Shown here: positions 9,666 through 30,169 of the stretch, one piece after another | Layout of the letters: every line of letters starts with the position of its first letter | How positions within the stretch are numbered: the stretch's first letter is position 1 | Virus record (IMG/VR): IMGVR_UViG_3300035698_028007 | Coordinates: 1 to 44,478 of that record | Strand: one strand, 5' to 3' | DNA length: 44,478 nt | Source of the DNA: a virus | The notes under the pieces: generated by a model | Databases searched by the model: none | What the model saw: only the letters and a program-made list of their open reading frames with translations | Told to the model about the DNA's origin: nothing | Made by a program: the position numbers and the translations under genes

Positions 9666-12600
9666 ATGGGACTCAAACAGGGCATTAAGAAAGGTATAGA
9701 TCGAGATGCATTACAGAAAATGAGAGATAAGGGATTAGTCAGTCCTAATTTTCTTTCACCTATCAGACCTAAAAATATGGATCCATTACCAGAGGATCCC
9801 TTAAAGAAGTATTTTGACAATCTTCCTCCTGATCTGAAATCTCAGTATGATGATACACAGAAACCACAAGAACCCGGGGAAGATCCATTACAGAAATACT
9901 TTGATAATGTTCCAAAAGAATTATATCCTACTCAACCTGGTACAACCGGACAAACAACTCAAAAGGATCCAGAACTTGAAACTTCATTTATAAAAGGTGC
10001 AGAAGGAACAATTAAAAAAATAAAAGGTGATGTAAGATATGTATATGGAGGTGTATTAGAAGAAATATCCGGGGAAAGAAAGAAAGAAAATCTCTATGCC
10101 AGGCATCAAGCCGGTGAGCCAATTTTTGCCGGGAAGGATATCAAAGATTATGATAGTAATATATCTATTATTCAAAAAGATATCAATGATTTGGATAAAG
10201 CAAACAAGCACCTTACAAAACAATTCAGTCAATTAACTAAGCCAAAAACACATGAATTTTCTCCTGGTGGATCAGTAGGCCTCTCGAAAAGAATTGATAA
10301 GAATATTCAAGATTGGGAACAGAAGCCAGAATATGATGAATATACTGCTAATAAGCAGAATTTATTAGATGAACTGAATGATTATAAAAGAGCCAGAAAG
10401 TTATTTAAAAAGACAGGATCAGCAGAAGAAGCAATAGAAATAGTAAAAAGGGCAGAGCAAACTCAATCCTATGCAGAGGAACAAATGAGAAAAGGCCGGG
10501 AACTTGCTGAATCTGCTCCCCAGGGAGAAGGATTTTGGTTTAAGGCCGGTGCAATGGCTCCACAAATCATTGGATCTGGTCTTGCTATTGCTGTTGCTCC
10601 AATTACTGCCGGAACTTCATTAAGTGCTATTCCTGGTATTATTGCAGGAACTAATATTGCCGGGTTATCAGTATCGGCTGTTGGTTCTGCTTTGATGGAG
10701 ACTGATAGATATTCAGAAGAAACAGGAATTGAAGTTGATAATAAGGTACGTTGGGGAGTTTCCATATATTCCGGTGCATTGGAATATGTTGCAGAGAGAA
10801 TGAGGCTCGGTAGATATCTTCCTAAAGGAATGACTTCAAAGTTAATATCCAAGTCTTTATTAAAGGATGGTCAGCATATAGGATTAAAGGTATTACAGGA
10901 CTTTTCAAAACAATCTCCTAAAGTATTTAATAAAATAGTAAAACTTGCAGGATCAACCAATGAAGAAGGTTTTGAAGAAGCTATTACTGAAGCAGGACAA
11001 TTATTAGGTGAACGTATCTATAAGGATCCAGAGCATTGGACCAGAGGAAAAGATTTTGTAAAACAAGTTGGTGAGGCTTATGTAGCCGGTGCATTGATGG
11101 GAACAGCGTTAGGAGGTCTTAATATGTGGGCCACTAATAAAATAACCAATGACAGGAGAAAAAAATCTGGCCATGTTGTATTGGCCCAGGATGATTCAAA
11201 CGGAAAAGTCATTGAGGTTATTCAGCAAGATAAAGATGGTGATGTTTCAGGATTTACTGCAAAGGGTAAATCATATACCATTAAAAAAGATAATCTTGGT
11301 GAGAGTGCAAGTATGACAACAGATCAGTTTAATGATTATATGGGCGCTAAGAAAGATAATAAGGACATTAAACAGCAAGTCGAGAAAGATGTAAAAAAAG
11401 CCCAAGAAGAAAATCAGGTTAATGAAATAATAAAAGACTTCTCCCATTCAAACGGAAAAGACGTTATCCGGGTAATGGATGATGAAAATAATGTTTGGTA
11501 TGTTACCGATGGAGAGTTAGATCAGGCTGATGTTAATATTAAAACTCCCATATCAGTAATTAGTCCTACCCGGGAAACTCAAAGCTTAGATCCTTCTAAG
11601 ATCAGAGAAAGAGAAGTTATACCGGTAGAACAGTATAGGGCAACTGTTATCTCTGAATTAGAATTAGATCTTGAACAGGCCGAGGTAGAGAAGGAGGCAG
11701 TTAAGGATTCATCACTTGAAGGAGTGCCAGAGGAGTTAATGATGGGCGCAGAAATAATCTTTAATGGTGAACCTGGGCAGATTGTTGACATGGAGGATCC
11801 AACCGAGGGAATTGGTATTCGCATAACAGATGCAGAGGGTAATGAATCAACCAGAGTAGTTTCCCCAGAGGAATACGGATTGTTAGAAACAAAGCAACCA
11901 GAAGGATCGGAGATACCAGAACAGCCGGAAGATACAGGTTTGGATAAAACTCTAAATGTAAAAGTAGGTGGAAGGGAATACGATGTAAAATTAATAGGTA
12001 ATGAGGATGGTAGTTATACTATTGATAATACCTACTCAGATGAAGGATCAGCCAAGAGAATGAAAACTTCCATTAAAAAACTTTATGGAGGATTAAATGT
12101 AGATATTGAAAATATTACCGATAAGACAGATCCATTTGCTAAAAATCAGTTTATTATAAAAGTTAATGAGAAAACCGAGGAAGAAACTAAGAATGAAAAG
12201 AAAACTGCTACAACCGGTGAACCATTATTAAAGGAAACTCCAGTAGAATTATCCCAGGAAGAAAGAGCAAAGAAGATTAAAGATAGTTGGAAAACTGCCG
12301 AGAGTGCCGAGAAAGACCGGATGGATGATATAATGGGAGTAAAACCAGAAGATGTAAAGGCTCCTGTTCAGGAAGAAGTTAGAGATGAGAAACAAATTAA
12401 AAAGTATGAAGAAGAAAAAAGTATAAAAAGAAATATTGCAGGAGCAGTTTCACAAAAATTAAATAAAACTATAAATGTTGAAAAAGCAGAAGAAACAGTT
12501 GATTCTAATGAGCATTATATTGTAAAAGACGGAGATGGTAATATAATTGCCGAAATAAAAGGGAGTAGAACTAATAGAGGTATTCAGGTAAGGGGAATTG

Positions 12601-15600
12601 AAGTAAATGAAGAATATAGGAGGCAAGGAATAGCCGGATCAATATATGAGATAATGGGAAGAACCTTATTATCGCAAGGGAAAGGAACTTTATACTCTAA
12701 AAGTTCCCAACATCAATTTACTGCAAAGGATGAAAAAGGAAGAAGTATTTCTCCTGCTAATAAACTTTGGGAAAATTTAGTATCAGAAGAAAAAGCTAAA
12801 AGAACCCCCGAAGGCCAGATCTATTTATACGAGATTATAGATAAGAAAGGGACACAAACCCAGGCGAAAGTTGAGGATACCCAAGGTGAAAGTGCAAAAT
12901 CTATTAATGAACTTGAAACCTTTGAAGGTCCTGCATATAGATTTAATACTCAGTTTGGACAGGAAAAGGGAACCAAAGGAGCAGATATAGTAAGGTTTGA
13001 AAGGGATGAATTAGGTAATGAAGATGATATCTCCGATGAAGTATTAGCTGAATTAGAAGATATTCCGGCTGAAAATGTTATTTGGGTGACAAGGGATAAA
13101 AAAGAGGCCGGTAGATATGCCCTTCCTTCTTCTGAGCATGAAAGAACTAATGAAATGTCAGATGAAGAACTGGATGAACTTGGTGTAGAAGATTATGCTG
13201 ATATTGTTCAGGGAGGAAAAATTATTACAGACCTTGGAGCAGAGGGAACACTTGTTTTACTGCCAGGTAAAAAAGATAAGGCCGGAACAGTCATTGATGA
13301 AAAACCTCCAATAGAACCAAAACCTGATGTAGTTTCCGATGTTGTTCCCGAACCGGAAACCCCGGAGGAAACAAGAGAATTAAAAAACCCTGAAGATATT
13401 GAAGAATATAATTTAGAGGAAATTAAGTTAGTTGAGGAAAGATTAAAGGATGAAACCGATGAGGAAGCAAGAGAAGATTGGAAAAGAGAGATAGAAGAAC
13501 TAAAAAATGATCCTGCTGAATATTGGGAGGAATTTCCTGTTAATGAAGATGAAATCGAAGATAGAGACAGGGAAGTAATGGCAGTTAGGAAATATTATGA
13601 TGATAAAGTCAAAGATGAAGTAATTGGAGATCCCCTCAATTCTATTGAAAATACAAAAAGAACATTTGTTAAATATCATAAAACAAAAGCATACCAGGAT
13701 GGATATAAATATGGATCCAGAGAGTTTGATAGGCAAATAAAACCTATGTTGGAGAATTATGATAATGAAAATTGGGAAATATTGGCCGATAATTCATCGA
13801 TAAATAGGGCAAAAAATAATGAATTTTCTTCTAAATCATTTGAGGAATATACAGGCTTTAAACTTCCATCGGAAGCAGTAACTAAAAAAGATAAAGCCAA
13901 ATTAATAGCTGATCTTAAAAAACATAAAGCGCAATCTGTTAAATCAGAATCTAAGAAGGAACCTTGGGAAATGACACCAGAGGAATATACTCAGGCCATA
14001 TATGACAGAAAGTTAGATTTTGATAGATTAGGTGCAGATGGTGGCAAAATCAGTTCTCAGGTTAAAGGTTACCATGATACAGCAGATCCACAAAATAAAC
14101 AAATTGCAAAAGAGTGGATTGATAAGCAGATGGAAGGTCGGCATAGTGGTATTGTTCTTAAAGCATTAAGGGATGGAAAAAAGGTTCCTGATGAAATATT
14201 AAAACATTATCCTAAATATCAGGATTACGCAGATAAACAATCTGGAAAAACCCAACCAATACCCAAAGATACCCAGGTGAAATCTGATGATGATGATGGT
14301 TGGAGAAATACAAGAATCCAGGCAAAGAATATCTTCCGAATGTTGAAGGAAAAACATAATAATAGTATTCCTGACATGAGAAAAGACTTTGAGGATATTA
14401 TTAAACGGAATAATATAAAGCCAGACCAGGAAGCCGTAGAATGGGAAGAATTTAATAAATACTTTAAAGTTGATAAAGAGAAAAAAACACAATCATCCGG
14501 GGGATTAAAAAGTATTAGGGACCAACAATTAGAACATGCAGAAATAACCGGTGTTGATTTTACAAAGTCTGAAACTAAGATACCTGGGGATCTGTTAAAA
14601 AAGGAACCCTGGGAGATACCAATAGAGGATTATTTAAGGGGAGTTACAGATGTTGATGAAATAGCTGTAAGAAAATCTGCACATGCAAACCATGTTAAAC
14701 AGGCAGTACAGGAAGGTAAAGGTGTTCCCATGGTCGTATTAATTGATTATGAAAATAACCAATGGGCCAAAGACATATTAGATCCTCCCGGGAAATCTTC
14801 TGCTCCTTCCCAAAAATCAGATAACAAACTTGTTACCGATGAACAATACGAGGAATTAAAAAAGAAAATGAAAGGATTACTTGGAGGTCAACTTCATTCC
14901 GGTTTTAATCCTGAAATACTCTCCGTAGGTACTCAAATGGCAATATATCATATTGAGAAAGGAACCAGAAAGTTCGCAGACTTTTCAAGGAAAATGATAG
15001 CTGACCTGGGGGATGGTGTAAAAAGTTATTTAAAATCCTTTTATGAAGGAGCAAGGAGAGTTCCCGGTATTGATACTAAGGGAATGGATAATACTGAATA
15101 TGTTGATAACTATGATTTAGATAGCTTAACCAAAATTCAACCAAAAGAAGAAAAAGAGGTTAACCAGGTGGATAACCAAAAACAAGACTTTGATATTTCA
15201 ACAGATGCTTTTACGGATGCCACAGATGAAAAACTTCTAAGCTTAATTAGCAGATATAATACATTACGTTATAGTAATAAGGCCGAGCAGAAGGAAAAGG
15301 GGAAATTGATGAATAAGATCATCAAAGGAGCAAAACAGCTTGACATAGATCTGGAAGGAATAAAGAATTACTATTCTAAAATAATCCCTTTTCGGAACGG
15401 AAAAAGGGTAAAAGCCAAAAGGGCAAATACACCCACAAGTAAGGTTGATAATTATGTCCCATTATCCAAAAGATCACAAGAAACCAAAGATTTATTTGAT
15501 TTAATAGATAAAGCTTTAAAAAAGAATCCTGGTGTATTAAATTCTATGAGGGTAGGAGTTGAAAGGAAGGATATCAAAGGAGCAGTAAAAGATATTCTTT

Positions 15601-18600
15601 CTGATACAAATAGTCGAAGGGCGCAAGATTTCCTTGGTGCTATTGACTTTGCGCTAAAAGATGATTACTTTAGCGTATTCGAGAGGGTAGGCTATCAAAC
15701 AAGAGATGAACAATATCCTTTAGATGAATTTAAAACTTTTTTAAATGAAATCATAGACAGGGAAGAAATAGAGCCAGAGGGCGATATCTCACCGGAGTTG
15801 GTAAGAAAACTTGATGAAAATTTTATTGTATTAAAAAACATTGATCAGGAAAAAGGAGGAAAAACTTTAACACCTGATGAATTTAAACAGGCAAAAGAAT
15901 ATCTGGAAGATCAAGAGAAGTTGCTAATATTCAGGCCAAAAACTGAGGAGGAAACAAATTATGATGAACGTGGACCAGACAATATTGAACAAGATAGGCA
16001 AGGAGAGGAACCTGAAATTTTGGCTGATGAGGGAAGTGTTCCTGGCTCCGGAGGAATTAGTAGCAGACCTGGAGAACGAGAAGGTCTTACTGATAGAAAA
16101 ACAACTAAAAAACTTGCAGGTGAAGAATCCGGAAAGAGTAGCGATAGCGACTTGGGAAGTCCTTCCATTACTACTGGAAAACCAAGCGATAAGGAAGTAT
16201 ATCCAAAGACACCGGGATCTCTCATTACACCTGACATTTCCGGAAGTGGAAAATCTGGAACAAGCGATGCAGATAGTAAAAAAGGACCGACCTTACCTCA
16301 CCCAGGAGGATTATTATTCGATCCAGAGGACATTGGGGGGACTACAATCCAACCTGAAACAGATCAAGCGAAAAAGCAAAAAGAAGTAAATTCCAAAAAG
16401 GTTGAAACCAAAATTGGTGACCTTGAAAATATTCAAGAAACTTTACCGGCATTATATCCAGATCAACAAACTGATGTTCAAAAAGCAGAGAATCGTTTCT
16501 TTGTTAAAGATGGAAAGGGATATCTATTTACTAATGCAACAGGGACCGGCAAAACCTTTACCGGCCTTGGAATAGTTAAGAGATTTATTAACCAGGAGAA
16601 AAATGATATTCTTATTGTTGTTCCTTCAGATGTTAAAGCAAAAGATTGGATAAGAGATGGAAAAATATTAGATCTTTCCATGACTCAGTTAAAAGACACA
16701 AAAGATGGTGGAAAAGGTATTAATACTACTACATACTCAAATTTCTTTCAGAATCCAGAATTAGAACACAGAGAATTTGACTTAATCATATTTGATGAAT
16801 CCCACAATATAATGGGTAATCAGAAAGGAGAGAACAATAAAAGGACTATTTCTCATTTCAGAAATTCTAATAGGTATGATCATTCATTACAAAAATTAAA
16901 GGATCAGCATAAACTTTGGCAGAAGGAAACTGAGTTAGTTGGCGAGATAATGGTGGTAAGGAATGAACAGAATGAATTAGAAACAGAACAAAGGGAAAAA
17001 AGACTAAATAATTTTGTTTCCGAGGCAGATGAAGAAAAATATAAAAATCAAATAGACAAGTTTGATAATAAAATATCTGTTATTCAGGAGAAACTTGCGC
17101 CAGTTAGGGAAAAACAAAAGGAAGAATTGCCGAAATTAGAAGAAAAGGCCAATGAATTAGCAAATAAAACAAAAGTAGTATTTCTATCTGCAACACCTTT
17201 TAAAACCCACAAAACCCTTAGATATGCTGATGGTTTTATATTTGACATGGGTGGAGGTTCCAGAATGGGCCAGTCATATAATGAAGGATCCGGAGAAGAT
17301 CAGTTCTTTATAGCCAATCTGGGTTATAGAATGAGAACCAATAAGCTTACAGAGCCAGATGCAGAAACAGATGTTCCATTATTAGAAAGACAATTCATTG
17401 ACAGACTTGTTAAAGAGGGAGCAATGAGTGGCAGAATGTTAATGATAGATCAGGATTATTCAAGAGAATTTCCAGTAATATCAAAAAATGATATTGATAT
17501 TCTCGATACCGGTATGAAGGAGGTAATGGATAATGCTGATAGAGATAAATACCCGAATCTTAGTAAGTATGCTAATTTTAAGTATAGAAATCATTTAAAA
17601 TCTAATCAGTTATTTGAAGCATTAAAGGCTCATTATGCTAAAGAAAGAATTGATAAACACCTTGCACTTGGAAGAAAAGTCGTTGTTTTCCATAAAAGAG
17701 TGACCGGTGTATCACAGCATCCATTTAATTTTAATAATGCTTATTATGAATATAGAGATTGGAGAAATAAACAAGTAGTAAGAGTAAGTATTAAAAATGA
17801 TAAGAAAGCCTTAGAAGAATTAAAAGTATTTGAGAGTGAAAACAGAAATTTACTCGCATTGGAGTTTGATCTTCGCAATCCTATTGACCAGTTACAAGAA
17901 TATTATGGTGATAGACTAACACAATTCAATGGTACTATTACTAATAAGAAGATAAGAAGAAATAATATAAAGACATTTAATGACTCTAATTCTGGAGTAG
18001 ATATTATTCTTGTTCAGGAACAGGCAGGAAGGGAAGGAATAGACCTACATGATAATACCAATGGTAAACAAAGAGTATTAATCAACCTGGCATTACCTTT
18101 TGATCCTATCACAGCTTTACAGAGTGAAGGTAGAATTAATCGTATAGGACAAACCTCAGATGCTATAATTGAATATCCTATACTTGGGTTAGACATTGAG
18201 AGGTGGCAATTCGGATCCAGAATAAATAAAAGGGTAGGAACAACAGAGAATTTGGCACTTGGTAGTATGGCCCGGGATTTAAGAAGAAGTTTTAAAGATG
18301 GATATCTTAATAGTTCAATCAATGATCCAGGAGCAGATCAGGGAAAAGGAGGAAAGAATTTTGATAGATCAACACAAGAGGACTCTAAATTTGATCAGGC
18401 CAGAGCATTTTACTTTACAAATAAGAAGAAAACGAGCAGGGATAAGTCAAGAGAGGGGATTGATTACTTTGCTACTCCAGAACCATTAGGTTTTAAAATG
18501 ATGGAGTGGTTGGATATTAAGCCAGGGGAAGAAATATTAGAACCGAGTGCAGGACATGGAGCCATTGCAAGGTTTTCTCCTGAATCATCAAAGCTTACAG

Positions 18601-21600
18601 CTATTGAACCTTCATTCAACTTATTCTCTAAATTATCTGTTAATGCAACCGGTGATCTCCAGAATACAACATTTGAAGATCATAACATAATAAACAAGTA
18701 TGAAGGTATAGCAATGAATCCTCCGTTTGGATCTGGAGGGAAAACTGCTATTGAGCATATCGAAAAAGCATTTGGGCATCTTAGGAATGGAGGAAGAATT
18801 ATTGCTATTGTTCCTAATGGTCCGGCTATGCAGAAAAGATTAGATAAGTTTCTATATGGTAAAAATGAAAAGGATAAAGACCTTAATCCTTCTGCTTATT
18901 TAGTAGGTGAAATAATATTGCCTGGTGTAACATTTGAAAGGGCCGGTACTAAAGTAAACGCAAAAGTTGTTATTATTGATAAGATATCAGACTCAGAAAA
19001 GCTTGGAGTGCCACAAATGGGTAATATCGATTTATCCAGTACAACAACAGTAAAAGACTTCTTCAATAAAATTGAGAATATTGATCTTCCACCAAGGGTA
19101 ATTATTCCTGAAGAAATAAATAAACCAGAAGTATCACCTTTGGTAACTGGAGGAAGGGGATCCACAATTCCTATGAAGGGATCCTTTGCTAATCAAAATG
19201 ATGAAATAGTAACAATCTTATCACAGAAAAACACCAAGACCGGTGCTGATATGATTGTTGTTAATATTAATGATCGTCAGGACAGAGATACTTTTAATGA
19301 TTTTAAGAGGATAGCTAAAAGAATTGATCGATCAAGTTATTATAGCAGATATTCAAATAGGTTAAATAATATTAAACCTGGATTTATATTTACCTCAGAA
19401 CAAGATGCAAGAGATTTTCAAAAGGAAGTAAATAAAAAATATGGTGACGATGGGGAAGATCATGGCCTTGCTGATTATACAAATTTAAGATTAAGAAAAA
19501 AAGGTTCTAAGCCTGATAGTAGAATTGATCAGGTAAATAATAGACTTAATAAATTAGCATCTGAAAAGAAAAAGCTAAAAGCTAAGTTGGAAGGTAGAAA
19601 AACAGAACAGGGCAGTTTTTTTCCAGGGGATCTTATTAAACCATCTGGAGGGGATCTATTTGATGTTCCATTACAATTTGACGAAAAAACTGTTAAATCA
19701 GCCTTGCAGGATATTGAGGGAGAAATGAGAGTTTTGCAGGAAGAAGCTTTAATTCTTAATAAAAAGAAAATTTCTGGAGAACCTGGAGATCAAAGTTTGT
19801 TATTTAGAGTAAAACCTATTGACCGAAGCTTTCAATCTAACACAGAAAGAGCATTAGATAAGATATCTCAGAAAAAAGCCACAGCAGAACAATGGAGGGC
19901 CATGTTAAAAAAGAATGGCGCAAAACAGGCTGAAATGGATTGGATGGATATGGATTATTTATTTGACTTGAGTCCTAATCCAACAAAGGAGCAACTATTT
20001 TATTATATGAGAAATAATAAAGTAGAACTTTCGGAAACTGTATTAGTTGAACCAAACTTTGAAAATCAGACTGAGGTAACAGAGGTAATGAGTCCTATGG
20101 GTGAGCATGTAGGTTATGCTCTAATATGGAAAGATGGAAGTGGTAGAGTAAATGAAGATCTTTTCGATTCCGAAGAAGATCTCCATGAGTTTTATGATAA
20201 TATGGATATGACTGATGAAGAGCGTAAAGGTACTGATGAAGTAAAATATAAAAAATGGACACTCCCGGGATCCAAGAACAATAGAGAAATATTAATTCAT
20301 TTAGGAAATTCAAAACAAGCAGAGAAAGATTTACCTAAACCTGAGAAAATCAAACCAAGTGAATCTGATATGTATGAGGGATACCCAGATAAACCTGATA
20401 CCGATAATGATCCTGGTGGTTATGCAATCGATTATGTACTTAAATATTCTGATAGTGGGTTAGAGGTAGGACACCAGGTAAATGGTTATTATCATTATTA
20501 TTTAGGTAATAACTCAATGTCTAATGTTACTCTTGATCAGGCTGAATCTGAATTAACAGCATATTGGAAAATAAAATATCAAGACTCAGATAAGTTTTAT
20601 TCTTCCCATTGGGATAATAGACCTAATATTATTGCACATGCGAGAGTATCTGATAGCGCAGATGGTAAAACTCTTATTATTGAGGAAATACAATCTGATT
20701 GGGGACAAAAGGGGAAAAAACAAGGTTTTCATGGAGATCAAAGAGAATTGAAAATGTTAAGTGATGTTGAATTAACATTAGGTCAAAATAAAAATTTTAT
20801 ATATTTTCTTGATACAAATAATAGGGAAGTAGATTGGGGAGGTTTTCGTGGAGATTATGTGAACCGATCAGGAAAGGAAACAATAAAGGCAAGTAAAACT
20901 CAGAAAAATGCAATACTAAGTTATGTTGATGCTAAAAATCTTGGTGATGACAATAAAGTTCCAGACATGCCATTTAAAAAGACTGATCAATGGATTGGAC
21001 TTACTTTTAAAAGAGTATTGCAACATGCAGTAGAGGAAGGTTATGAAAATGTTGCCTGGACTACCGGAGAAATACAGGCCGAGAGATATGATCTAAGTAA
21101 ACAAGTTGATGCAATACGTGTTACAAATTCCTCAGATGGTTATAATATTTCTGCTGATGGTACTGTTATTGCATCCGGGGTTAAAAAAGAAAAGTTAGAG
21201 GATTATGTAGGTAAAGATCTTGCATTGAAAATTATTGAGGATAGTTCTACAACTAATCTTCCGGAGTTGAAAAAGAAAATGAAGGCTGATAAAGAACTGC
21301 AAAAATTAAGGGATAAGGCCAGTAAAGCAAATGAAGAAATTATAGCCGGTAATTTTGAGAGATCAATTTCCTCAGACACATATCAACAATTACAAACTGC
21401 TCAAATGAGAAGGGATCTGCTTGAACAGGCTGTTGATGATTATGTAAAACAAGAATATGCTCCATTAAAATATCTGGATAAAAGATACTTTGGTGATGAT
21501 CTGAAGGTCGGTGGTGAAGGAATGAAGGTATTTTATGATAAGATGCTTACCGGTTGGGTTAATAAATTCGTTAAGAAGTTTGATGCAAAGGTTAGTAGTG

Positions 21601-24600
21601 ATGATATACGTGGAGGGAATGAGGTTAAACCGGCTGAAATTAAATGGGGTGAAGCAAGTACTATGCCTCATAGAATGGACACCGGTGCGCCAAAATCAAT
21701 ACCAGATGTAAATTATATTTATGGAATACACCCGGAAACAAGGAATCCTAAGTATAGAATAGAAATTGATAATAGGGATGGTAATGATTATGTTTATTTG
21801 AAAGAAATGGATGGTGATGGTTATTGGGGAGAGGATCTTCATAATGTTGCACAGGCAAAAGAATTTGTTAGAGAATTGGAAGAAACAGAGGCAAGTAAAA
21901 AATCAACTAATAAACCTCTCCATTCAATTCCTATTACTCCAAAAATGAAGGAAGCAGTTGAATCTAAGCTACCATTGTTCAAAAAGGAGAAAAAGAAATT
22001 CCCTGGGGACTTAGTTTCCAAAGAGGCAAAAGAAGATATCAAAGAGATAAATGAACAGTTCAGTAATGCTACCAGAGAAATAGTTGATAATTATGAGAAT
22101 CTTTTAGGTGTAAAAATTAATTTGGTCGAAAAGGCAGAGGATCTTCCAAAGGAAATGATCTTAAAACTTAATAGACTTGGCCCAGGTGTATTAAATCTTA
22201 CTAAAGGAGTCTTTGATCGAAGTGATAATTCTGTTTGGGTTGTATCAAATCAGCATACTCAATTAAATGAGATAGGTAAAACTATTTTGCATGAAACTGT
22301 TGGTCATAAAGGATTAAGAGAAATGCTTGGTTGGAAATTGGATGATGTGACAAGCCAGGTATATGATTCAATGAAAATAGAGGATATTAAAGAAATAGCT
22401 ACTGATTATGCCTTTAGAGTCGATAAAAACACAGATCAACATAATTTTGAGGATAGATTAGTTATTGCAGAAGAATATTTATCTAATATGGCAATGGATC
22501 AGGTTAAACCTTCATTTGTAAAAAGGTGGTATGCTTATGTTAGAAAATTATTAAGGAGAAATTTCCCTGAAATCAAATGGACAGATAATGACATATATTC
22601 ACTATTGGCAGAAAGTAAAAAATATATACAGAATAAATATAAGGGCAAAAAAGAAAATAATCGTAGCTTTGATGAAAACACAGTTAATGAGGATGAAGAA
22701 ATATACACCACAAAGGATGAAGAAAAAATATCCTATAAAAAAGCCACAAATATTATTGATGCGCCCGGATCAGATGCATTACAACGGAAGAAAGATAACC
22801 TTAGAGGTAAAAATCCTGCATTAAGGAACCTTAAAAAAGGTGAGTTTTCTCTTGTTGAGAGAAAATATACCTCTGATAAGAATTATTCTTTTGTTGGAAA
22901 TAATAAGATTGAAAGCTATGGTGATATTGCATATATCTTTAAAAATCTTGAAACTGCTTCAGTAGAAAATGTTTTTGCAGTATATGTTACTGAAGGTAAA
23001 AAACCTATTATTCAACATATATCCATGGGACACCCCAACGCTTCAATAATGTATCTTGGAGCCATTAGGGATGCAGTTACTCGGTTTAATCCTGATAATT
23101 TTTTCTTTGTTCATAATCACCCATCTGGGAACCTTAATCCGAGTAATTCAGATAAAAATATATATAAAAAATTAAAATCTGCATTTGGCAATAAAGTAAA
23201 TCAAGGAGTTATTATAAATATTGATTCTGGAAACTATTCATTGTTTGATGATGATTATGGTAAAACAATTCATAAAAGGCCTACAAAGTCTAAAGATGAA
23301 TTTCAACATAAAGTATTAAAATTTGACAAACAGGTATTCAGGAAAGATGTAAATTATAAAAAGGAGATTATTACTGAATCAAAAGCAGTAGCAGAATTTG
23401 TCTCAGCACAAAGACTCTCAAATGGGAATAAAATATCCATATTAGTTTTAAACAGGGGAAATGAGATAATTGGAAATATTAAACTTCCTTATAGTAGATT
23501 GAATGGCTCAGATTTAGTTAATGATATTAGTTCTTATGTAATTCGTTTTGGAGGTACAAGTGCTATCATTTATGGTCGAATAAATGAAAAGGACTGGAAT
23601 AGTAATCTTAGAAAAATAAAAGAAAATCTTCTTCTTAGTGATGTTACTCTGCTTGATGTTGTTGATATAGGTGGTAATCCTAATATTGATCTTAAATATG
23701 ATTATACAAGCTATGCAGATGAAGGACTTTTGGAACCGGGGAAAAAATATAAATTTCCAGGATCCTTTTTTAAGAAAAAGGATAAAGTTTCTAAGCAGAA
23801 AAGCGAAACACCGAAAGGAGAAGGATTAAGTCTGAGTGTAAAAGGTGAAAAAGGTGAACCTAAAAAAACAAATAATTTTGCCGGGGATCTAATTACAATA
23901 AAAGAATCCGGGAAGGTTGAGGAAGAAAAAACTGAAAAACTCAGGAAGATACTTGATACCAGAGGTGAGAAGTATAGGGAGTTTGTTCAGGATAAAATGT
24001 TATCGATCCGGAAAATCCAAAGGATTGTAAAAAATCGTGATGGAGTAGTTGATAAGTTTTCTAATCCTTATATGATGGAAAACCTCTCACAGAGTAAATC
24101 TGATGTAGAAATTGAGAACTATACCAGAAACCAATGGAACCCATTACAGAAGATTATAACTGATATTATTCAAGAGGATAATGTTACTTATGATGAATTA
24201 AGCGAATATCTCTGGATTAAGCACGTTCCAGAAAGAAATGATCAGCTTAAAAAGAACCTTAAAGTTTCTGAAGGTGGAGGAATGCCCACAATAGAGGCAG
24301 AAGAACTTATTAAGAAATGGGAGCAAAAAATAGGATTAGATAATGTTAATGAATTGTGGAGAAGGATAAACTCTGCAACAAATTTCACTATAAAAAGATG
24401 GCTCGATGATGGGTTTATCTCTAATGAAGAATATAATGCATACAAGCAAGGTTATAAATACTATGTTCCTCTGAGAGGTTGGGCCGGTGAAACAGCAGAT
24501 GATGTATTTGATTATCTTGATAATGACATTGGTGGTGCATTTAATCCTAATATCAAAGCATGGGGAAGATCCTCAAAGCCTGATGATCCAATACCTTATA

Positions 24601-26747
24601 TTCGATCCATGGCAGAAACAGCAGTTGTAGCCGGTAATAAGAATAAGGTTAAAAAGCAAATGTTGAACCTGGTGAGAAATAACTCACAAATGAAAGATCT
24701 ATTTTCCTTTAAGAAGTATTGGTTAGTTCAAAATACTGAAGGGGAATGGACTGAAACTCTTTCAAAGCCTGATCAAAAGTTATTTGATGATGGTAGAGTT
24801 GTAACTAAAATGAATAATGCCCATGAAAAAAGGAATACTACTTTAAATGCAGAACAGCATTTAGTTAATGTATATGAACTTGGTGAAAAATATCAGATAG
24901 TAATGAATGATCCTTCAGTAGGAAGGGCAATAAATAATCTTAATGTATGGGAACAGGATCTTACCCGGGTACTTCAAAACTCAATAGGTAGAGGAACCAG
25001 GTATTTGAGTAAAGTATTTACCTCAAAGAACCCTGCATTTATTCTAGTTAACTGGATCCGAGATATTGCCTACGCATCCATGAGCCAACAGATCAGGGAA
25101 GATGGAAATGTAAAGAAATTTATATCCAATGTTCCTATTTCTGCAAAAGCTATTCATCGACACCTTTCAGGAAAAGCAAGACTTTCTCCTAATGAAATTG
25201 ATGTTATGTTTGCTGAATGGAGAGGAAACGGAGGGGAAACTGGCTATGTTCACTTAAATAAAATAGATAAATTTAAGAGAGAACTAACCAGGGATCTCCG
25301 AAGAATGAAAGGTGAACAGAGTTGGACCGACAAAGTAGGACAATCAGCTATAATAAAGAAATCCGGTCAGATGCTTGACTATATGGCCTTAATGTCTGAG
25401 AATATGGCAAGGTTTTCAGTTTATCTAACTGCCCTTGAAAGTGGAAAGAGTAAAGCAGAATCAGCTTATGCGAGTAAAAATGCTACTGTAAACTTTAATC
25501 GTAAGGGTAGAGTATCAGGATTGGCCGGTAGTTTATATGCTTTCTTTAATGCCCAGGTACAGGGTGCGCAGAATATTTTAGGATTAGCAAAGAACAATCC
25601 TAAACCATTTATCAAAGCAGGAGCTACTTTTGTTGTTTTTGGTGCAGTTGTAGCAGAAATGGCAAGAGCATTATCACCTCCAGACGAAGAAGGCAAAAAT
25701 GCCTATGATAAGCTTCCTGATTACATAAAACATAATTTTCTTGTAATTCCAAATTTCTTTTCAAATACAAGTGATAAATTTCTCACTATTCCCCTTCCCC
25801 ATGGATTTAGAGCATTGTATGGGTTAGGCGTAACAATAACAGATGTTCTACATAAGAAGAAATCATTAGATGGTGCAATGTTTAGTATTGCTTCTGATGT
25901 GATCGATGCAGTTTCTCCCTGGCAATTTCCTGCAACAGCGATAAGGTCAGAAGAAATTAGTACAATAAAAGCATTAAGACCGGCAATACCTTCGGCAATA
26001 GTTCCATGGTATGATATCTGGATTAATGAAAACTTTGCAGGAAGAAAAATATATAAAGAATCATTCACAAAAGATCTTGAAAGATGGACTCCACGTTCAG
26101 AACAAGGTTTATATAATGTAAATGATGCATTAAGAGTCGCTACCAAAACATTAAATAAAATTGGTGGAGGTGATCAGGTAAGACCGGCTAACATTGTTTT
26201 GGATCCTGAAACAGGAAATATAAAAACAGTAGCTTGGAAAAGAGCAATATTCGACCACAACCCTTCTAAGGTTGAGCATGTCATTGAATACTATTTAGGA
26301 GGATTAGGTAAATTTTGGAACAATGTTTATAAAACAAGTAAATCTACTGCTAAAATTGCATTGGGAGATGATGAAGAAAAAATCTCATCATACAATATCC
26401 CGGTTGCAAGAAGATTTGTTGCATCTCCATATAAGAGAAATATATACGGAGAATACTATAACATATTAAGGCAAGTAAAAGATTTTAAACATTATGAATC
26501 AGCGTTTCGAGGTGATAATGATATTGAAATGATAAGAAACATGGGCCAAAATCGATATATGCAAGAATTAAAAGTTGTAACTACTGCATATAAAGGTATG
26601 ATGGACATTATATCAGATGCTATTGATATGACAACAGATGATAATAGAGTATCAAAACTAAAGGCCAGGCGTAACGATATGATGAAGGATCTTATCAATA
26701 AATCAAATGATTTAAAAATTAAATACTCGCAAGATGAAACAAAATAA
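9666..26747 (+). CDS. giant polyvalent virion protein (5693 aa): helicase, N6-adenine methylase, GNAT-like, HExxH and RadC/JAMM motifs
   Basis: One uninterrupted frame of 17 kb. Residues 44-52 and 73-81 repeat DPLxKYFDN, and about 300-343 form a hydrophobic Gly/Ala segment. About 925-1060 is GNAT-like (EYRRQGIAGSIYE). KEPWE units lie near 1430 and 1644, and a VTDEQYEELKKK block near 1723-1795. About 2285-2830 is an SF2 helicase: GTGKT near 2290, DESH 2376, SATP 2508, EGRINRIGQ 2820. About 2955-3090 is an N6-adenine methylase (LEPSAGHGA, NPPFGSGG). About 3394-3950 contains EEIQSDWGQKG and GGEGMKVFYDK. HETVGH lies near 4209, and a RadC-like JAMM motif (HNHPSG...SD) at 4483-4496. About 4980-5500 has an NFNRKG...FFNAQVQG tail resembling LPD38 of polyvalent proteins. 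Such proteins are thought to be injected with phage DNA and to counter restriction. The gene overlaps portal by 14 nt. Confidence 0.8.
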   Translation: MGLKQGIKKGIDRDALQKMRDKGLVSPNFLSPIRPKNMDPLPEDPLKKYFDNLPPDLKSQYDDTQKPQEPGEDPLQKYFDNVPKELYPTQPGTTGQTTQKDPELETSFIKGAEGTIKKIKGDVRYVYGGVLEEISGERKKENLYARHQAGEPIFAGKDIKDYDSNISIIQKDINDLDKANKHLTKQFSQLTKPKTHEFSPGGSVGLSKRIDKNIQDWEQKPEYDEYTANKQNLLDELNDYKRARKLFKKTGSAEEAIEIVKRAEQTQSYAEEQMRKGRELAESAPQGEGFWFKAGAMAPQIIGSGLAIAVAPITAGTSLSAIPGIIAGTNIAGLSVSAVGSALMETDRYSEETGIEVDNKVRWGVSIYSGALEYVAERMRLGRYLPKGMTSKLISKSLLKDGQHIGLKVLQDFSKQSPKVFNKIVKLAGSTNEEGFEEAITEAGQLLGERIYKDPEHWTRGKDFVKQVGEAYVAGALMGTALGGLNMWATNKITNDRRKKSGHVVLAQDDSNGKVIEVIQQDKDGDVSGFTAKGKSYTIKKDNLGESASMTTDQFNDYMGAKKDNKDIKQQVEKDVKKAQEENQVNEIIKDFSHSNGKDVIRVMDDENNVWYVTDGELDQADVNIKTPISVISPTRETQSLDPSKIREREVIPVEQYRATVISELELDLEQAEVEKEAVKDSSLEGVPEELMMGAEIIFNGEPGQIVDMEDPTEGIGIRITDAEGNESTRVVSPEEYGLLETKQPEGSEIPEQPEDTGLDKTLNVKVGGREYDVKLIGNEDGSYTIDNTYSDEGSAKRMKTSIKKLYGGLNVDIENITDKTDPFAKNQFIIKVNEKTEEETKNEKKTATTGEPLLKETPVELSQEERAKKIKDSWKTAESAEKDRMDDIMGVKPEDVKAPVQEEVRDEKQIKKYEEEKSIKRNIAGAVSQKLNKTINVEKAEETVDSNEHYIVKDGDGNIIAEIKGSRTNRGIQVRGIEVNEEYRRQGIAGSIYEIMGRTLLSQGKGTLYSKSSQHQFTAKDEKGRSISPANKLWENLVSEEKAKRTPEGQIYLYEIIDKKGTQTQAKVEDTQGESAKSINELETFEGPAYRFNTQFGQEKGTKGADIVRFERDELGNEDDISDEVLAELEDIPAENVIWVTRDKKEAGRYALPSSEHERTNEMSDEELDELGVEDYADIVQGGKIITDLGAEGTLVLLPGKKDKAGTVIDEKPPIEPKPDVVSDVVPEPETPEETRELKNPEDIEEYNLEEIKLVEERLKDETDEEAREDWKREIEELKNDPAEYWEEFPVNEDEIEDRDREVMAVRKYYDDKVKDEVIGDPLNSIENTKRTFVKYHKTKAYQDGYKYGSREFDRQIKPMLENYDNENWEILADNSSINRAKNNEFSSKSFEEYTGFKLPSEAVTKKDKAKLIADLKKHKAQSVKSESKKEPWEMTPEEYTQAIYDRKLDFDRLGADGGKISSQVKGYHDTADPQNKQIAKEWIDKQMEGRHSGIVLKALRDGKKVPDEILKHYPKYQDYADKQSGKTQPIPKDTQVKSDDDDGWRNTRIQAKNIFRMLKEKHNNSIPDMRKDFEDIIKRNNIKPDQEAVEWEEFNKYFKVDKEKKTQSSGGLKSIRDQQLEHAEITGVDFTKSETKIPGDLLKKEPWEIPIEDYLRGVTDVDEIAVRKSAHANHVKQAVQEGKGVPMVVLIDYENNQWAKDILDPPGKSSAPSQKSDNKLVTDEQYEELKKKMKGLLGGQLHSGFNPEILSVGTQMAIYHIEKGTRKFADFSRKMIADLGDGVKSYLKSFYEGARRVPGIDTKGMDNTEYVDNYDLDSLTKIQPKEEKEVNQVDNQKQDFDISTDAFTDATDEKLLSLISRYNTLRYSNKAEQKEKGKLMNKIIKGAKQLDIDLEGIKNYYSKIIPFRNGKRVKAKRANTPTSKVDNYVPLSKRSQETKDLFDLIDKALKKNPGVLNSMRVGVERKDIKGAVKDILSDTNSRRAQDFLGAIDFALKDDYFSVFERVGYQTRDEQYPLDEFKTFLNEIIDREEIEPEGDISPELVRKLDENFIVLKNIDQEKGGKTLTPDEFKQAKEYLEDQEKLLIFRPKTEEETNYDERGPDNIEQDRQGEEPEILADEGSVPGSGGISSRPGEREGLTDRKTTKKLAGEESGKSSDSDLGSPSITTGKPSDKEVYPKTPGSLITPDISGSGKSGTSDADSKKGPTLPHPGGLLFDPEDIGGTTIQPETDQAKKQKEVNSKKVETKIGDLENIQETLPALYPDQQTDVQKAENRFFVKDGKGYLFTNATGTGKTFTGLGIVKRFINQEKNDILIVVPSDVKAKDWIRDGKILDLSMTQLKDTKDGGKGINTTTYSNFFQNPELEHREFDLIIFDESHNIMGNQKGENNKRTISHFRNSNRYDHSLQKLKDQHKLWQKETELVGEIMVVRNEQNELETEQREKRLNNFVSEADEEKYKNQIDKFDNKISVIQEKLAPVREKQKEELPKLEEKANELANKTKVVFLSATPFKTHKTLRYADGFIFDMGGGSRMGQSYNEGSGEDQFFIANLGYRMRTNKLTEPDAETDVPLLERQFIDRLVKEGAMSGRMLMIDQDYSREFPVISKNDIDILDTGMKEVMDNADRDKYPNLSKYANFKYRNHLKSNQLFEALKAHYAKERIDKHLALGRKVVVFHKRVTGVSQHPFNFNNAYYEYRDWRNKQVVRVSIKNDKKALEELKVFESENRNLLALEFDLRNPIDQLQEYYGDRLTQFNGTITNKKIRRNNIKTFNDSNSGVDIILVQEQAGREGIDLHDNTNGKQRVLINLALPFDPITALQSEGRINRIGQTSDAIIEYPILGLDIERWQFGSRINKRVGTTENLALGSMARDLRRSFKDGYLNSSINDPGADQGKGGKNFDRSTQEDSKFDQARAFYFTNKKKTSRDKSREGIDYFATPEPLGFKMMEWLDIKPGEEILEPSAGHGAIARFSPESSKLTAIEPSFNLFSKLSVNATGDLQNTTFEDHNIINKYEGIAMNPPFGSGGKTAIEHIEKAFGHLRNGGRIIAIVPNGPAMQKRLDKFLYGKNEKDKDLNPSAYLVGEIILPGVTFERAGTKVNAKVVIIDKISDSEKLGVPQMGNIDLSSTTTVKDFFNKIENIDLPPRVIIPEEINKPEVSPLVTGGRGSTIPMKGSFANQNDEIVTILSQKNTKTGADMIVVNINDRQDRDTFNDFKRIAKRIDRSSYYSRYSNRLNNIKPGFIFTSEQDARDFQKEVNKKYGDDGEDHGLADYTNLRLRKKGSKPDSRIDQVNNRLNKLASEKKKLKAKLEGRKTEQGSFFPGDLIKPSGGDLFDVPLQFDEKTVKSALQDIEGEMRVLQEEALILNKKKISGEPGDQSLLFRVKPIDRSFQSNTERALDKISQKKATAEQWRAMLKKNGAKQAEMDWMDMDYLFDLSPNPTKEQLFYYMRNNKVELSETVLVEPNFENQTEVTEVMSPMGEHVGYALIWKDGSGRVNEDLFDSEEDLHEFYDNMDMTDEERKGTDEVKYKKWTLPGSKNNREILIHLGNSKQAEKDLPKPEKIKPSESDMYEGYPDKPDTDNDPGGYAIDYVLKYSDSGLEVGHQVNGYYHYYLGNNSMSNVTLDQAESELTAYWKIKYQDSDKFYSSHWDNRPNIIAHARVSDSADGKTLIIEEIQSDWGQKGKKQGFHGDQRELKMLSDVELTLGQNKNFIYFLDTNNREVDWGGFRGDYVNRSGKETIKASKTQKNAILSYVDAKNLGDDNKVPDMPFKKTDQWIGLTFKRVLQHAVEEGYENVAWTTGEIQAERYDLSKQVDAIRVTNSSDGYNISADGTVIASGVKKEKLEDYVGKDLALKIIEDSSTTNLPELKKKMKADKELQKLRDKASKANEEIIAGNFERSISSDTYQQLQTAQMRRDLLEQAVDDYVKQEYAPLKYLDKRYFGDDLKVGGEGMKVFYDKMLTGWVNKFVKKFDAKVSSDDIRGGNEVKPAEIKWGEASTMPHRMDTGAPKSIPDVNYIYGIHPETRNPKYRIEIDNRDGNDYVYLKEMDGDGYWGEDLHNVAQAKEFVRELEETEASKKSTNKPLHSIPITPKMKEAVESKLPLFKKEKKKFPGDLVSKEAKEDIKEINEQFSNATREIVDNYENLLGVKINLVEKAEDLPKEMILKLNRLGPGVLNLTKGVFDRSDNSVWVVSNQHTQLNEIGKTILHETVGHKGLREMLGWKLDDVTSQVYDSMKIEDIKEIATDYAFRVDKNTDQHNFEDRLVIAEEYLSNMAMDQVKPSFVKRWYAYVRKLLRRNFPEIKWTDNDIYSLLAESKKYIQNKYKGKKENNRSFDENTVNEDEEIYTTKDEEKISYKKATNIIDAPGSDALQRKKDNLRGKNPALRNLKKGEFSLVERKYTSDKNYSFVGNNKIESYGDIAYIFKNLETASVENVFAVYVTEGKKPIIQHISMGHPNASIMYLGAIRDAVTRFNPDNFFFVHNHPSGNLNPSNSDKNIYKKLKSAFGNKVNQGVIINIDSGNYSLFDDDYGKTIHKRPTKSKDEFQHKVLKFDKQVFRKDVNYKKEIITESKAVAEFVSAQRLSNGNKISILVLNRGNEIIGNIKLPYSRLNGSDLVNDISSYVIRFGGTSAIIYGRINEKDWNSNLRKIKENLLLSDVTLLDVVDIGGNPNIDLKYDYTSYADEGLLEPGKKYKFPGSFFKKKDKVSKQKSETPKGEGLSLSVKGEKGEPKKTNNFAGDLITIKESGKVEEEKTEKLRKILDTRGEKYREFVQDKMLSIRKIQRIVKNRDGVVDKFSNPYMMENLSQSKSDVEIENYTRNQWNPLQKIITDIIQEDNVTYDELSEYLWIKHVPERNDQLKKNLKVSEGGGMPTIEAEELIKKWEQKIGLDNVNELWRRINSATNFTIKRWLDDGFISNEEYNAYKQGYKYYVPLRGWAGETADDVFDYLDNDIGGAFNPNIKAWGRSSKPDDPIPYIRSMAETAVVAGNKNKVKKQMLNLVRNNSQMKDLFSFKKYWLVQNTEGEWTETLSKPDQKLFDDGRVVTKMNNAHEKRNTTLNAEQHLVNVYELGEKYQIVMNDPSVGRAINNLNVWEQDLTRVLQNSIGRGTRYLSKVFTSKNPAFILVNWIRDIAYASMSQQIREDGNVKKFISNVPISAKAIHRHLSGKARLSPNEIDVMFAEWRGNGGETGYVHLNKIDKFKRELTRDLRRMKGEQSWTDKVGQSAIIKKSGQMLDYMALMSENMARFSVYLTALESGKSKAESAYASKNATVNFNRKGRVSGLAGSLYAFFNAQVQGAQNILGLAKNNPKPFIKAGATFVVFGAVVAEMARALSPPDEEGKNAYDKLPDYIKHNFLVIPNFFSNTSDKFLTIPLPHGFRALYGLGVTITDVLHKKKSLDGAMFSIASDVIDAVSPWQFPATAIRSEEISTIKALRPAIPSAIVPWYDIWINENFAGRKIYKESFTKDLERWTPRSEQGLYNVNDALRVATKTLNKIGGGDQVRPANIVLDPETGNIKTVAWKRAIFDHNPSKVEHVIEYYLGGLGKFWNNVYKTSKSTAKIALGDDEEKISSYNIPVARRFVASPYKRNIYGEYYNILRQVKDFKHYESAFRGDNDIEMIRNMGQNRYMQELKVVTTAYKGMMDIISDAIDMTTDDNRVSKLKARRNDMMKDLINKSNDLKIKYSQDETK
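15961..16389 (+). CDS. possible overprinted gene inside the giant gene (142 aa)
   Basis: A +1-frame ORF opens with ATGATG at 15961. It is preceded at 15945-15953 by GAGGAGGAA, a textbook Shine-Dalgarno site 7 nt upstream. It encodes 142 leucine-, glutamate- and lysine-rich residues with a helical, soluble look and a very basic end (KRKSKKK). In the main frame the same DNA encodes a low-complexity Gly/Ser/Asp/Pro linker between the N-terminal half and the helicase, where overlap would be tolerated. The minus strand is also open here for 92 codons, so local composition may explain the open frame. No family was recognised. The ribosome site raises it above a shadow, but it remains unproven. Confidence 0.3.
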   Translation: MMNVDQTILNKIGKERNLKFWLMREVFLAPEELVADLENEKVLLIEKQLKNLQVKNPERVAIATWEVLPLLLENQAIRKYIQRHRDLSLHLTFPEVENLEQAMQIVKKDRPYLTQEDYYSIQRTLGGLQSNLKQIKRKSKKK

Positions 26748-28698
26748 AAAGCAAAAGAAATCGCATCTTAAAGATACTCCTGAAATTGTTCAACAGAACA
26801 TGCAGGAACTTCATACCTACCGAGAATATTATGATAGCTGTCTTAATTTTAGGGAAAGAAGGATTAAGAACCGGAAATACTACCGGGGTGATCAATGGCA
26901 TGAATTGATTAATAACCCTGATGTTGCCGGTGAAGTAATTACTGAAGAAGATTATATTAAGGATAGAGGTAAGATCCCCTTTAAACAGAATATAATTCGT
27001 CAGTTAGTTAAAAATGTTCTTGGTCAGTTCCGGGTAAATCCTAATAAAAGTATGGTTGTTGCCAGAGATAGGGATGAACAGAAAACTTCTGAGATGATGA
27101 ATTGCGCCCTGGAAGCTGTAAACGACATGAATCGATCAGTAGCTATAAATACCAGAAACTATGAGGAGTTTTTAATCTCAGGTATGTGTATGGGAAAAGT
27201 AAGTTATGATTGGATCCGGGAAAGAAACATTGAAGATGTAAGGAAAAAGAATGTACCAGTAGCAAGAATATTTTATAACTCAGATGTTCAAGATGTTCGT
27301 TTGTTAGATATTCGGCTTGTTGGTGAATTACATGATTTAACACTTGATGAAATTACTATGAACTTTGCCCATACCAGAGCAGAAGAAGAAATAATTAAGG
27401 AATGGTATGGTATGAGAGGCGATAAGGAAGATAGTAACTTTCAGATAACAGCAAATGAAGGACTATCAGCAGATCAATTTGATCATATAGACTTCTTTAT
27501 TCCCCTGGATGAACATAAATGTAGAGTAATTGAGGCATGGAGTTTAAAATCTTCATGGAAAACCTATGTTCATGATTATATGGATGGGAGTTATAAGATA
27601 TCCAATGTTTCATTAAAGGAGATTGAAAAGCTTAATGCAGAAAGGATCGAGATAGGATTAGCCAATGGAGAATTGAAAGAAGATATTAAACTCTTAGATG
27701 CACAGGAAAAAAGAGTGCAAACATGGCATGTTAAGTATTATACTCCTAATGGGCAAACATTATTTGAATCTGAATCACCTTATTACCATGGGGAGCATCC
27801 TTACGCAATGTTATTATATCCATTACTTGATGGTGAAGTATGGGGATTGGTTGAGGATATCATAGATCAGCAAAGATATATTAACCGGTTGATATCATTA
27901 CTTGACTTTATTATTGGTGCAAGTGCAAAGGGAGTATTACTATTTCCTGAAACTGCAAAGCCTGATGATATGACTATGGATGATATTGCAGACGAATGGA
28001 CCAGATATGATGGTATAATAAAATATAAACCTAAACCAGGCATAGAAGTACCTCAACAGATATCTTCCAATTCAACAAACATAGGTGCGCATGAGTTATT
28101 AGCAGTACAGCTAAAATTTATGCAGGAGATCTCTGGTGTATCACCGGCAATACAAGGTCAAAATCCAAGTGCCGGTACTCCTTCCTCTTTATATGCGCAG
28201 GAGGCTCAAAATGCTACTATCAATATAAAAGATTATATGGATAGCTTTATGGAGTTTCAGCGTGTTATGGACCAGAAAACATTACAGCTTATACAACAGT
28301 ATTACAAAAACCCGAGATATCTTGCTATATCTGGTAAGGATTATAGTGAAGAAATAAGGTCATTTAATCCTGAAAAGGTTAAAAATCTGTTATATGATGT
28401 TAATGTTGTTCAGGGAGTCGATGCTCCAGTATATCGTCAAATGATGGAAGAAACATTAACCAAGCTTCTTGATGGTGGATATATCGATATAACAATGTTC
28501 TTAGGAAATTCTTCAGTCCCATTTGCTGATAAATTACTCGATCAGATTAATCTGAGAAATGAGAAAATGGCAAACGGTGAGGATCCCGGCAATATTCCTG
28601 CTGAATTACTTAACCAAGTACAAGGAGGCGCAGAGGCCGGTTTGAATCCTAATTCACAAAAAATCGTTAGCCACTTGACAAGACCACAACAAAATTAG
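26734..28698 (+). CDS. portal protein
   Basis: A 654-residue protein beginning inside the end of the giant gene. Portal features include a helical N-terminus with YYRGDQWHE (49-57) and KQNIIRQLVKNVLGQFRVNP, the crown-wing start typical of P22-like portals. A central domain follows with YYHGEHPYAMLLYPLLDGEVWGLVEDI. The stem and crown region contains QEISGVSPAIQGQ, then a long helix through YAQEAQNATINIKDYMDSFMEFQRVMDQKTL. The dodecameric portal would form the packaging channel and dock the terminase. The C-terminal 40 residues are Gln/Asn/Gly-rich and look disordered. It is the last plus-strand gene of the block. Terminase lies on the other strand 10 kb away, an unusual separation for these partners. 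Confidence 0.8.
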   Translation: MKQNKKQKKSHLKDTPEIVQQNMQELHTYREYYDSCLNFRERRIKNRKYYRGDQWHELINNPDVAGEVITEEDYIKDRGKIPFKQNIIRQLVKNVLGQFRVNPNKSMVVARDRDEQKTSEMMNCALEAVNDMNRSVAINTRNYEEFLISGMCMGKVSYDWIRERNIEDVRKKNVPVARIFYNSDVQDVRLLDIRLVGELHDLTLDEITMNFAHTRAEEEIIKEWYGMRGDKEDSNFQITANEGLSADQFDHIDFFIPLDEHKCRVIEAWSLKSSWKTYVHDYMDGSYKISNVSLKEIEKLNAERIEIGLANGELKEDIKLLDAQEKRVQTWHVKYYTPNGQTLFESESPYYHGEHPYAMLLYPLLDGEVWGLVEDIIDQQRYINRLISLLDFIIGASAKGVLLFPETAKPDDMTMDDIADEWTRYDGIIKYKPKPGIEVPQQISSNSTNIGAHELLAVQLKFMQEISGVSPAIQGQNPSAGTPSSLYAQEAQNATINIKDYMDSFMEFQRVMDQKTLQLIQQYYKNPRYLAISGKDYSEEIRSFNPEKVKNLLYDVNVVQGVDAPVYRQMMEETLTKLLDGGYIDITMFLGNSSVPFADKLLDQINLRNEKMANGEDPGNIPAELLNQVQGGAEAGLNPNSQKIVSHLTRPQQN

Positions 28699-29747: not shown

Positions 29748-30145
29748 ATTAAATCAATTGTTATTTTATTAAGTTCTTTGAAGTTTAATCCAGATATAGC
29801 GTCCAATAAAATATTTTTCTGAACTCCTATTTCATTCCATTCTACATATTTTGATAAACTTAGAGATATTTCATCATTTCTTGTGTATTCCCATTCCATT
29901 GGCTCTGAATTATTATCCCTTCTGCAGCTATTTTTAAGTTCTATTGATAATTTTATTTGAAACTGAGGTTCCATGTGAGGAACTACTTTCAATATTTCAT
30001 TATATTCCTCTATCCACTCAACAGGAATTTTTTCCCCTGCCTGGTATTTTCTAGCAATAGCCTCACATATTTCAATATACCTTTCTTCATCTCTTACAAA
30101 CTTTGGAACTAAACCCAAAGCAGGTCTTGTATTTTTATTATCCAT
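29744..30145 (-). CDS. conserved-type phage hypothetical protein (133 aa)
   Basis: The frame opens upstream at a TTG (30169), but ATG 30145 (MDNKNTRPALGLVPKF) is the natural start. RPALGLVPKFVRDEERYIEICEAIARKY followed by IPVEWIEEYNEI is a pattern I associate with hypothetical proteins of Bacteroidota phages, with no known function. The C-terminal half is helical. The stop overlaps the next start (ATGA). It sits between the DHH phosphoesterase and the WlbA-like gene. Confidence 0.6.
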   Translation of the reverse strand: MDNKNTRPALGLVPKFVRDEERYIEICEAIARKYQAGEKIPVEWIEEYNEILKVVPHMEPQFQIKLSIELKNSCRRDNNSEPMEWEYTRNDEISLSLSKYVEWNEIGVQKNILLDAISGLNFKELNKITIDLI

Positions 30146-30169
30146 GTTATAAGTTTTTATGATATTCAA

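Follow-up and report, generated by a model that had tools for sequence, protein, structure and literature searches.

A putative DarB-like polyvalent protein of an uncultured phage carrying a tandem of complete and degenerate RadC domains

The locus examined here raises the question of what kind of protein a phage encodes in a single frame of about 17 kb placed next to its portal gene, and what that protein might do on entry into the host cell. The window, that is, the whole stretch of DNA that was analyzed, is the 44,478-base IMG/VR virus record IMGVR_UViG_3300035698_028007 of an uncultured phage. Polyvalent proteins, a kind described in 2017, are already known to travel in phage particles (Iyer et al. 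2017, PMC5512222).

The giant frame and its gene neighborhood

The frame starts with ATG and has zero internal stops, and the initial annotation was right that one intact frame of this size joins several modules. The features of the giant (residue numbers in aa) and of the two genes beside it are as follows.

8132..9622, +: 496-aa gene preceding the giant, at a position typical of ejection-type proteins
9666..26747, +: giant, putative polyvalent virion protein; single open frame of 5,693 aa, 647 kDa
10473..11225, +: N-terminal module, aa 270–520, with a hydrophobic Gly/Ala-rich stretch at aa 301–326 (homology; hydropathy peak)
12438..12890, +: GNAT-like block, aa 925–1075 (Acetyltransf_1/_7/_10, below Pfam cut-offs)
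14580..14597, +: IPGDLL, a linker motif with four similar copies further on (nt 19620, 21999, 23754, and 23877)
14778..15185, +: small conserved domain of DarB-like phage giants, aa 1705–1840 (identity in relatives)
16383..18440, +: predicted SNF2-type ATPase/translocase module, aa 2240–2925 (ResIII, Helicase_C; motifs invariant; PDB 1z63)
18438..19145, +: predicted gamma-class N6-adenine methylase, aa 2925–3160 (ATPEP, LEPSAGHGAI, NPPF; PHROG DNA methyltransferases)
20253..21980, +: EIQSDW module, aa 3530–4105, tentatively GNAT-like (conservation; AlphaFold model against GNAT structures)
22017..22670, +: predicted zincin-like metallopeptidase, aa 4118–4335, HETVGH and an AEE helix (HExxxH; predicted helices and strands)
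22857..23246, +: RadC1, complete JAMM site E4434, H4483, H4485, S4493, and D4496 (alignment; 2qlc match)
23313..23669, +: RadC2, degenerate RadC-like domain lacking the metal ligands (profile match to solo RadC)
23913..26585, +: C-terminal LPD38 module, aa 4750–5640 (Pfam LPD38, 1.5e-28, at aa 5345–5580)
26734..28698, +: portal protein gene (PHROG 156 portal, E 1.7e-64), overlapping the stop codon of the giant

The motifs on which the initial annotation relied lie at aa 2293 (GTGKT), 2377 (DESH), 2508 (SATP), 2821 (EGRINRIGQ), 2958 (LEPSAGHGA), 3018 (NPPF), 4209 (HETVGH), and 4483 (HNHPSG). Matches to Pfam and PHROG profiles, together with the invariance of the core SF2 and methylase motifs in a six-protein alignment, show that the named motifs are not chance occurrences. 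The Pfam search of the giant returned ResIII (4.5e-11), Helicase_C (1.4e-4), RadC (4.2e-11), and LPD38; profile searches supported the ATPase, methylase, RadC, and LPD38-like tail that had been proposed, and left the GNAT block weak. The giant, a single large chain encoded beside a phage portal gene, thus combines domains as disparate as ATPase, methylase, RadC, and LPD38; this is the composition of a polyvalent protein, and by homology it is assigned to the DarB-like polyvalent phage proteins, an already known kind. What is new in it, as predicted from the sequence, is a phage-borne tandem of active and inactive RadC domains in a DarB-like chain that has the reversed order of ATPase and methylase.

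The length, which had been regarded as deserving attention, proved unremarkable. In a survey of 125 complete relatives (median 3,792 aa), three reached at least 5,693 aa, so the size of the giant is not exceptional; a plasmid polyvalent protein of 12,242 aa has been described (PMC5512222). An assembly artefact was considered as the source of the length and rejected, relatives of 5.3–6.1 thousand residues being common.

The giant frame and the portal start overlap by 14 nt, and beyond the portal the PHROG search found the large subunit of the terminase as well as a match to a head protein. Among 76 distinct loci having both the LPD38 module and a portal like that of the record, the portal start lay between −200 and +600 nt from the stop of the giant on the same strand in 73, which bears out the noted position directly before the portal. 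The giants of the Bacteroides phage isolates BKO1-TP3 (5,553 aa) and BS-TP4 (5,391 aa) also stand directly before the portal with the terminase beyond, and the gene order, as in the record, is small gene(s), giant, portal, and then minus-strand genes. The BKO1-TP3 gene annotated as tail spike has a terminase as its structural match according to the note field of its record. The 496-aa gene gave no PHROG match, and its placement resembles that of the genes ahead of these two giants. Both share with the giant aa 1711–1823 (45–48% identity), the HExxxH peptidase (25–26%), and LPD38 (24–27%), and have no alignable ATPase–methylase of its type and no JAMM motif; in BS-TP4, unlike in the giant, NPPF precedes DESH. 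The host is likely one of the Bacteroidota, because long matches to the RadC pair in genome contigs were mostly in Bacteroidales records.

Other genes of the window were also noted. About 10 kb of minus-strand genes (28872–39130) separate the portal from the terminase; in BKO1-TP3 and BS-TP4 this interval contains no more than two small genes. Several of the translations from the record, as read, have the look of sugar and cell-surface metabolism: a UDP-GlcNAc 2-epimerase-like protein (31416–32627), glycosyltransferase-like proteins (34339–35355 and 35600–37174), an oxidoreductase-like protein (28872–29747), and a DHH phosphoesterase-like protein (30170–31111). Outside the structural block, a formyltransferase-like protein of 242 aa is encoded at 2867–3592 (+). 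Ahead of the ejection-type genes, a 903-aa protein (4080–6791, −) matches PHROG 32516 (unknown function) at 9e-50 and is possibly a tail or receptor-binding component.

Modules shared with known polyvalent proteins

The ATPase and methylase of the giant together match PHROG 10691 at 2e-242. The alignment, which comprises the giant and five homologues, retains the core SF2 motifs and shows the methylase motifs (ATPEP, LEPSAGxGAI, and NPPF) to be near-invariant. The initial annotation of motif-complete SF2 helicase and N6-adenine methylase modules therefore stands as to the motifs, but the unwinding that it suggested is less likely, the ATPase being of the SNF2/Rad54 type. Because the best PDB relative of the ATPase, 1z63, belongs to the snf2/rad54 family, a duplex translocase fits better than a strand-separating helicase, and movement along duplex DNA is the more likely activity of the module. 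A gamma-class adenine methylase fused to a SWI2/SNF2 ATPase constitutes a DarB-type dyad, and the giant has this combination. The usual order of the dyad is LPD36, methylase, and ATPase, whereas in the giant the ATPase precedes the methylase. This order is common: relatives of the ATPase-then-methylase type are encoded at 340 loci in viral contigs, which were found with an alignment as the query, whereas a single-protein query of this part found nothing in the viral contigs.

P1 DarB is virion-borne and ejected, contains a SWI2/SNF2 ATPase and an adenine methylase, and acts against restriction in cis (PMC5512222, PMC12810830); the giant is predicted to work in the same way. P1 DarB differs in having the methylase before the ATPase (PMC5512222) and in its length of ~2,000 aa. 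The ATPase-then-methylase module, at 38–46% identity, also occurs in the giants of Ruegeria phage 45A6, Pseudomonas phage Skulduggery, Klebsiella phage vB_KpnP_ZX1, and a Comamonas plasmid (3,695–3,912 aa), and in a solo protein of 853 aa on an Aquimarina plasmid; none of these chains has the RadC pair. On the Aquimarina plasmid (15920–19260 of locus L009), the solo gene (43.5% identical) is followed ~320 nt downstream by a separate JAB-domain gene, the two activities of the giant being present there as separate genes.

As to the remaining shared modules, the LPD38 C-terminus is the most widely distributed, with at least 588 viral loci. The N-terminal module is common to ~10 giants at 23–37% identity. 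The small domain is 45–48% identical in BS-TP4 and BKO1-TP3 and 41% in gp69 of Burkholderia phage JC1. Just upstream (14202–14783, +; aa 1513–1706), two similar stretches start with KKEPWE(M/I). Residues 1620–1706 share 41% identity with a giant (3,002 aa) of the Methanosarcina virus MetMV; that giant, which also has an LPD38-type C-terminus, is a polyvalent protein from an archaeal virus.

JC1 gp69 (4,515 aa) is a member of the DarB-like giants of the Bcep22 group. Mass spectrometry of virions purified on CsCl detected it by 51 unique peptides (PMC9144972). It has just two modules in common with the giant, namely the C-terminal one (profile E 3.6e-127) and aa 1706–1811 (41%); the ATPase–methylase type and the RadC pair of the giant gave no match in it. 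Since JC1 gp69 was found in virions and the synteny with the portal is conserved, packaging and injection of the giant, as its position had suggested, are well supported by homology and considered probable.

The closest relative of the giant, a 6,069-aa protein on IMG/VR contig 3300031111_000407 (L012), resembles it in the ATPase (53%), methylase (59%), RadC1 (51%), RadC2 (40%), and LPD38 (38%), and also has the N-terminal module, EIQSDW, and the peptidase. Its order is permuted: methylase, RadC pair, EIQSDW, and peptidase, whereas the RadC pair of the giant sits between the peptidase and LPD38. The same module set in a permuted order suggests that the giants may evolve by moving whole modules.

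The RadC1–RadC2 tandem

The RadC/JAMM motif that had been noticed proved to be a complete RadC1 site adjoined by an additional, degenerate partner, RadC2. RadC1 has the JAB fold with the E and HxH-x7-S-x2-D residues of RadC, and every one of the 90 domains that were aligned keeps this site unchanged (some of the loci overlap). The AlphaFold model of RadC1 superimposes on the RadC structure 2qlc with a Z score of 14.6 (rmsd 2.6, 120 aligned). HxH-x7-S-x2-D is absent from RadC2 in the aligned members.

It is quite unlikely that RadC2 is merely a linker domain of other origin, in which case the tandem would not be an active–inactive pair. The Pfam search did not recognize RadC2, and RadC1 and RadC2 of the giant compared alone gave just 50–58% probability, as would suit such a linker; against a profile of 70 solo RadCs, however, RadC2 reached a probability of 96.4% (E 1.3e-9), collinear over 117 columns, whereas 27 unrelated slices of the same giants reached at most 5.9%. 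The order of helices and strands in RadC2 is also that of RadC1.

The RadC-pair block recurs in dozens of uncultured phages. Its relatives are encoded at 284 loci in viral contigs, and both domains were present in all 74 distinct viral-contig frames examined (at least 2,000 aa in 69; none a small complete protein), where the query profile spanned both domains, so that recovery favors pairs, and the same query also recovered solo RadCs in genomes. In genome contigs, 8 pair-bearing frames (6 of them >2,900 aa) were found versus 73 solo frames with a median of 237 aa. In the tree, 78 of 78 giant RadC1 domains fell on one side of a split with a support of 0.965; the only solo-labeled frames on that side, L257 and L258, both match the pair query. 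The tandem is, on this sequence evidence, a giant-protein module of single origin. Isolates carrying the pair are lacking, because sequenced phage isolates gave zero matches and plasmids gave only weak ones, one of which spans both domains at 23.6%.

According to the published partition, RadC occurs only in conjugative elements and LPD38 only in phages (Iyer et al. 2017, PMC5512222). RadC and LPD38 occur together in the giant and in 26 of the 74 RadC-bearing viral-contig frames, and the partition therefore no longer holds; this counts against the partition, not against the phage membership of the giant. An earlier joint alignment of LPD38 and RadC was set aside, as its RadC rows aligned badly. 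No description of the tandem was found in the literature searched, whose coverage was partial. The tandem thus corrects the published statement on where RadC occurs, supplies for biochemical assays a monophyletic family whose active site is intact, and opens a way to approach what RadC does.

GNAT-like modules, peptidase, and proposed mechanism

The GNAT-like block that had been proposed is a tentative assignment. Three overlapping GNAT models match aa 925–1075 with E values of 1.3e-3 to 2.7e-3, all below the curated cut-offs, and blastp found no homologue of the block among the fetched giants. Eighteen other frames share the conserved EIQSDW module, and the 24 members that were aligned gave no relevant match in a 2025 Pfam copy; it is a conserved domain for which that copy has no family. 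In the AlphaFold model covering EIQSDW and the peptidase (mean pLDDT 69.9), the peptidase part is confident, with the expected helices around HETVGH. The EIQSDW part matches GNAT structures with borderline Z scores of 7.5–8.8: GCN5 (Z 8.8, rmsd 2.9, 106 aligned), ICL2 (8.6, 3.7, 119), NAT9 (7.8, 3.5, 125), and FemX (7.6, 9.7, 147). A Foldseek search of the PDB with the EIQSDW–peptidase model gave no significant match, and families other than those listed may apply; EIQSDW is tentatively regarded as GNAT-like.

The explanation that we consider best, and hold with good confidence, is that the giant, encoded by a tailed phage, is of the DarB-like polyvalent kind and would be packaged and ejected, protect the DNA, and deliver its modules. 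Computation establishes the intact frame, the complete motifs, the synteny, and the single origin of the RadC1–RadC2 tandem. To judge from its homologues, the giant is probably loaded in the head near the portal by means of LPD38 at its C-terminus and leaves together with the DNA. Once inside the cell, the ATPase would follow the incoming duplex while the adenine methylase attached to it modifies or occludes the DNA. By analogy with P1 DarB, the entering DNA would be protected in cis from type I-like restriction. The HExxxH peptidase may cut the chain at the linkers and free the other modules, the GNAT-like blocks may modify host proteins, and RadC1, held by the inactive RadC2, may act as a metal-dependent hydrolase on some substrate. 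The evidence against this explanation is that only two modules are shared with JC1 gp69, that the order of ATPase and methylase is opposite to that of P1 DarB, that the GNAT-like assignments are borderline, and that no general excess of linker motifs was found around the peptidase domains.

The giant might instead be mainly a structural head protein or ejection conduit, its enzyme modules being passengers with little activity. The wide sharing of the uncharacterized LPD38 C-terminus, the great differences in enzyme modules among relatives, and the hydrophobic N-terminal stretch agree with this, but the active-site motifs of the ATPase, methylase, and RadC1 are kept in divergent relatives, unlike those of decaying passengers, and we regard this as improbable. 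Still harder to accept is that the giant is made after infection as an intracellular polyprotein for replication or modification and is never packaged: the same ATPase–methylase does occur as a solo gene on the Aquimarina plasmid, but the conserved place directly before the portal and the presence of the homologous JC1 gp69 in virions (PMC9144972) speak against it. Beyond the preferred DarB-like explanation, a bolder proposal, drawn by analogy and rather doubtful, is that the tandem would constitute a distinct virion-delivered phage RadC machine, in which a catalytic JAMM domain, always joined in cis to a catalytically dead RadC-like partner as in MPN+/MPN− pairs, would act on a host target on entry (e.g. 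a ubiquitin-like conjugate or DNA intermediates); the giants that house it would have EIQSDW as a further, unrecognized GNAT-like effector.

As to the peptidase, HETVGH had been read as HExxH, which is incorrect: three residues lie between E and H, making it HExxxH, and HExxH occurs nowhere in the giant. Iyer et al. (2017, PMC5512222) describe the HExxxH variant among the zincin-like peptidases that polyvalent proteins contain. A zincin-like peptidase with HExxH or HExxxH is a common, not obligatory, trait of such proteins, and the giant has one, its fold being predicted; related domains were found in 95 frames. The peptidase could attack host proteins with no processing of the polyprotein, a serious possibility although not the favored one, which Iyer et al. 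list as an alternative (PMC5512222). A test of motif pairs around 93 peptidase domains gave p up to 0.05 in 7.5%, which is no excess overall, so that this test gave self-cleavage sites no support. In favor of processing, the pattern [FIYVW][PA]G[DSE][LFIM][ILVMF], picked after inspection, has five copies in the giant versus 0.05 expected, and these PGDL-like copies fall between modules, one immediately ahead of the peptidase. In an unbiased search for repeated words, PGDL did not stand out, and shuffled maxima were equally high. Cleavage at the linker motifs is hence put forward as a hypothesis only, because the patterns were chosen post hoc and the general test failed. In the giant of Bacteroides phage BF1-TP2 (7622–18523 of locus L006), a different pattern, likewise picked after inspection, [IV]RFR, has four copies (0.1 expected) at aa 1547, 1753, 2258, and 2479, two of which flank the peptidase domain.
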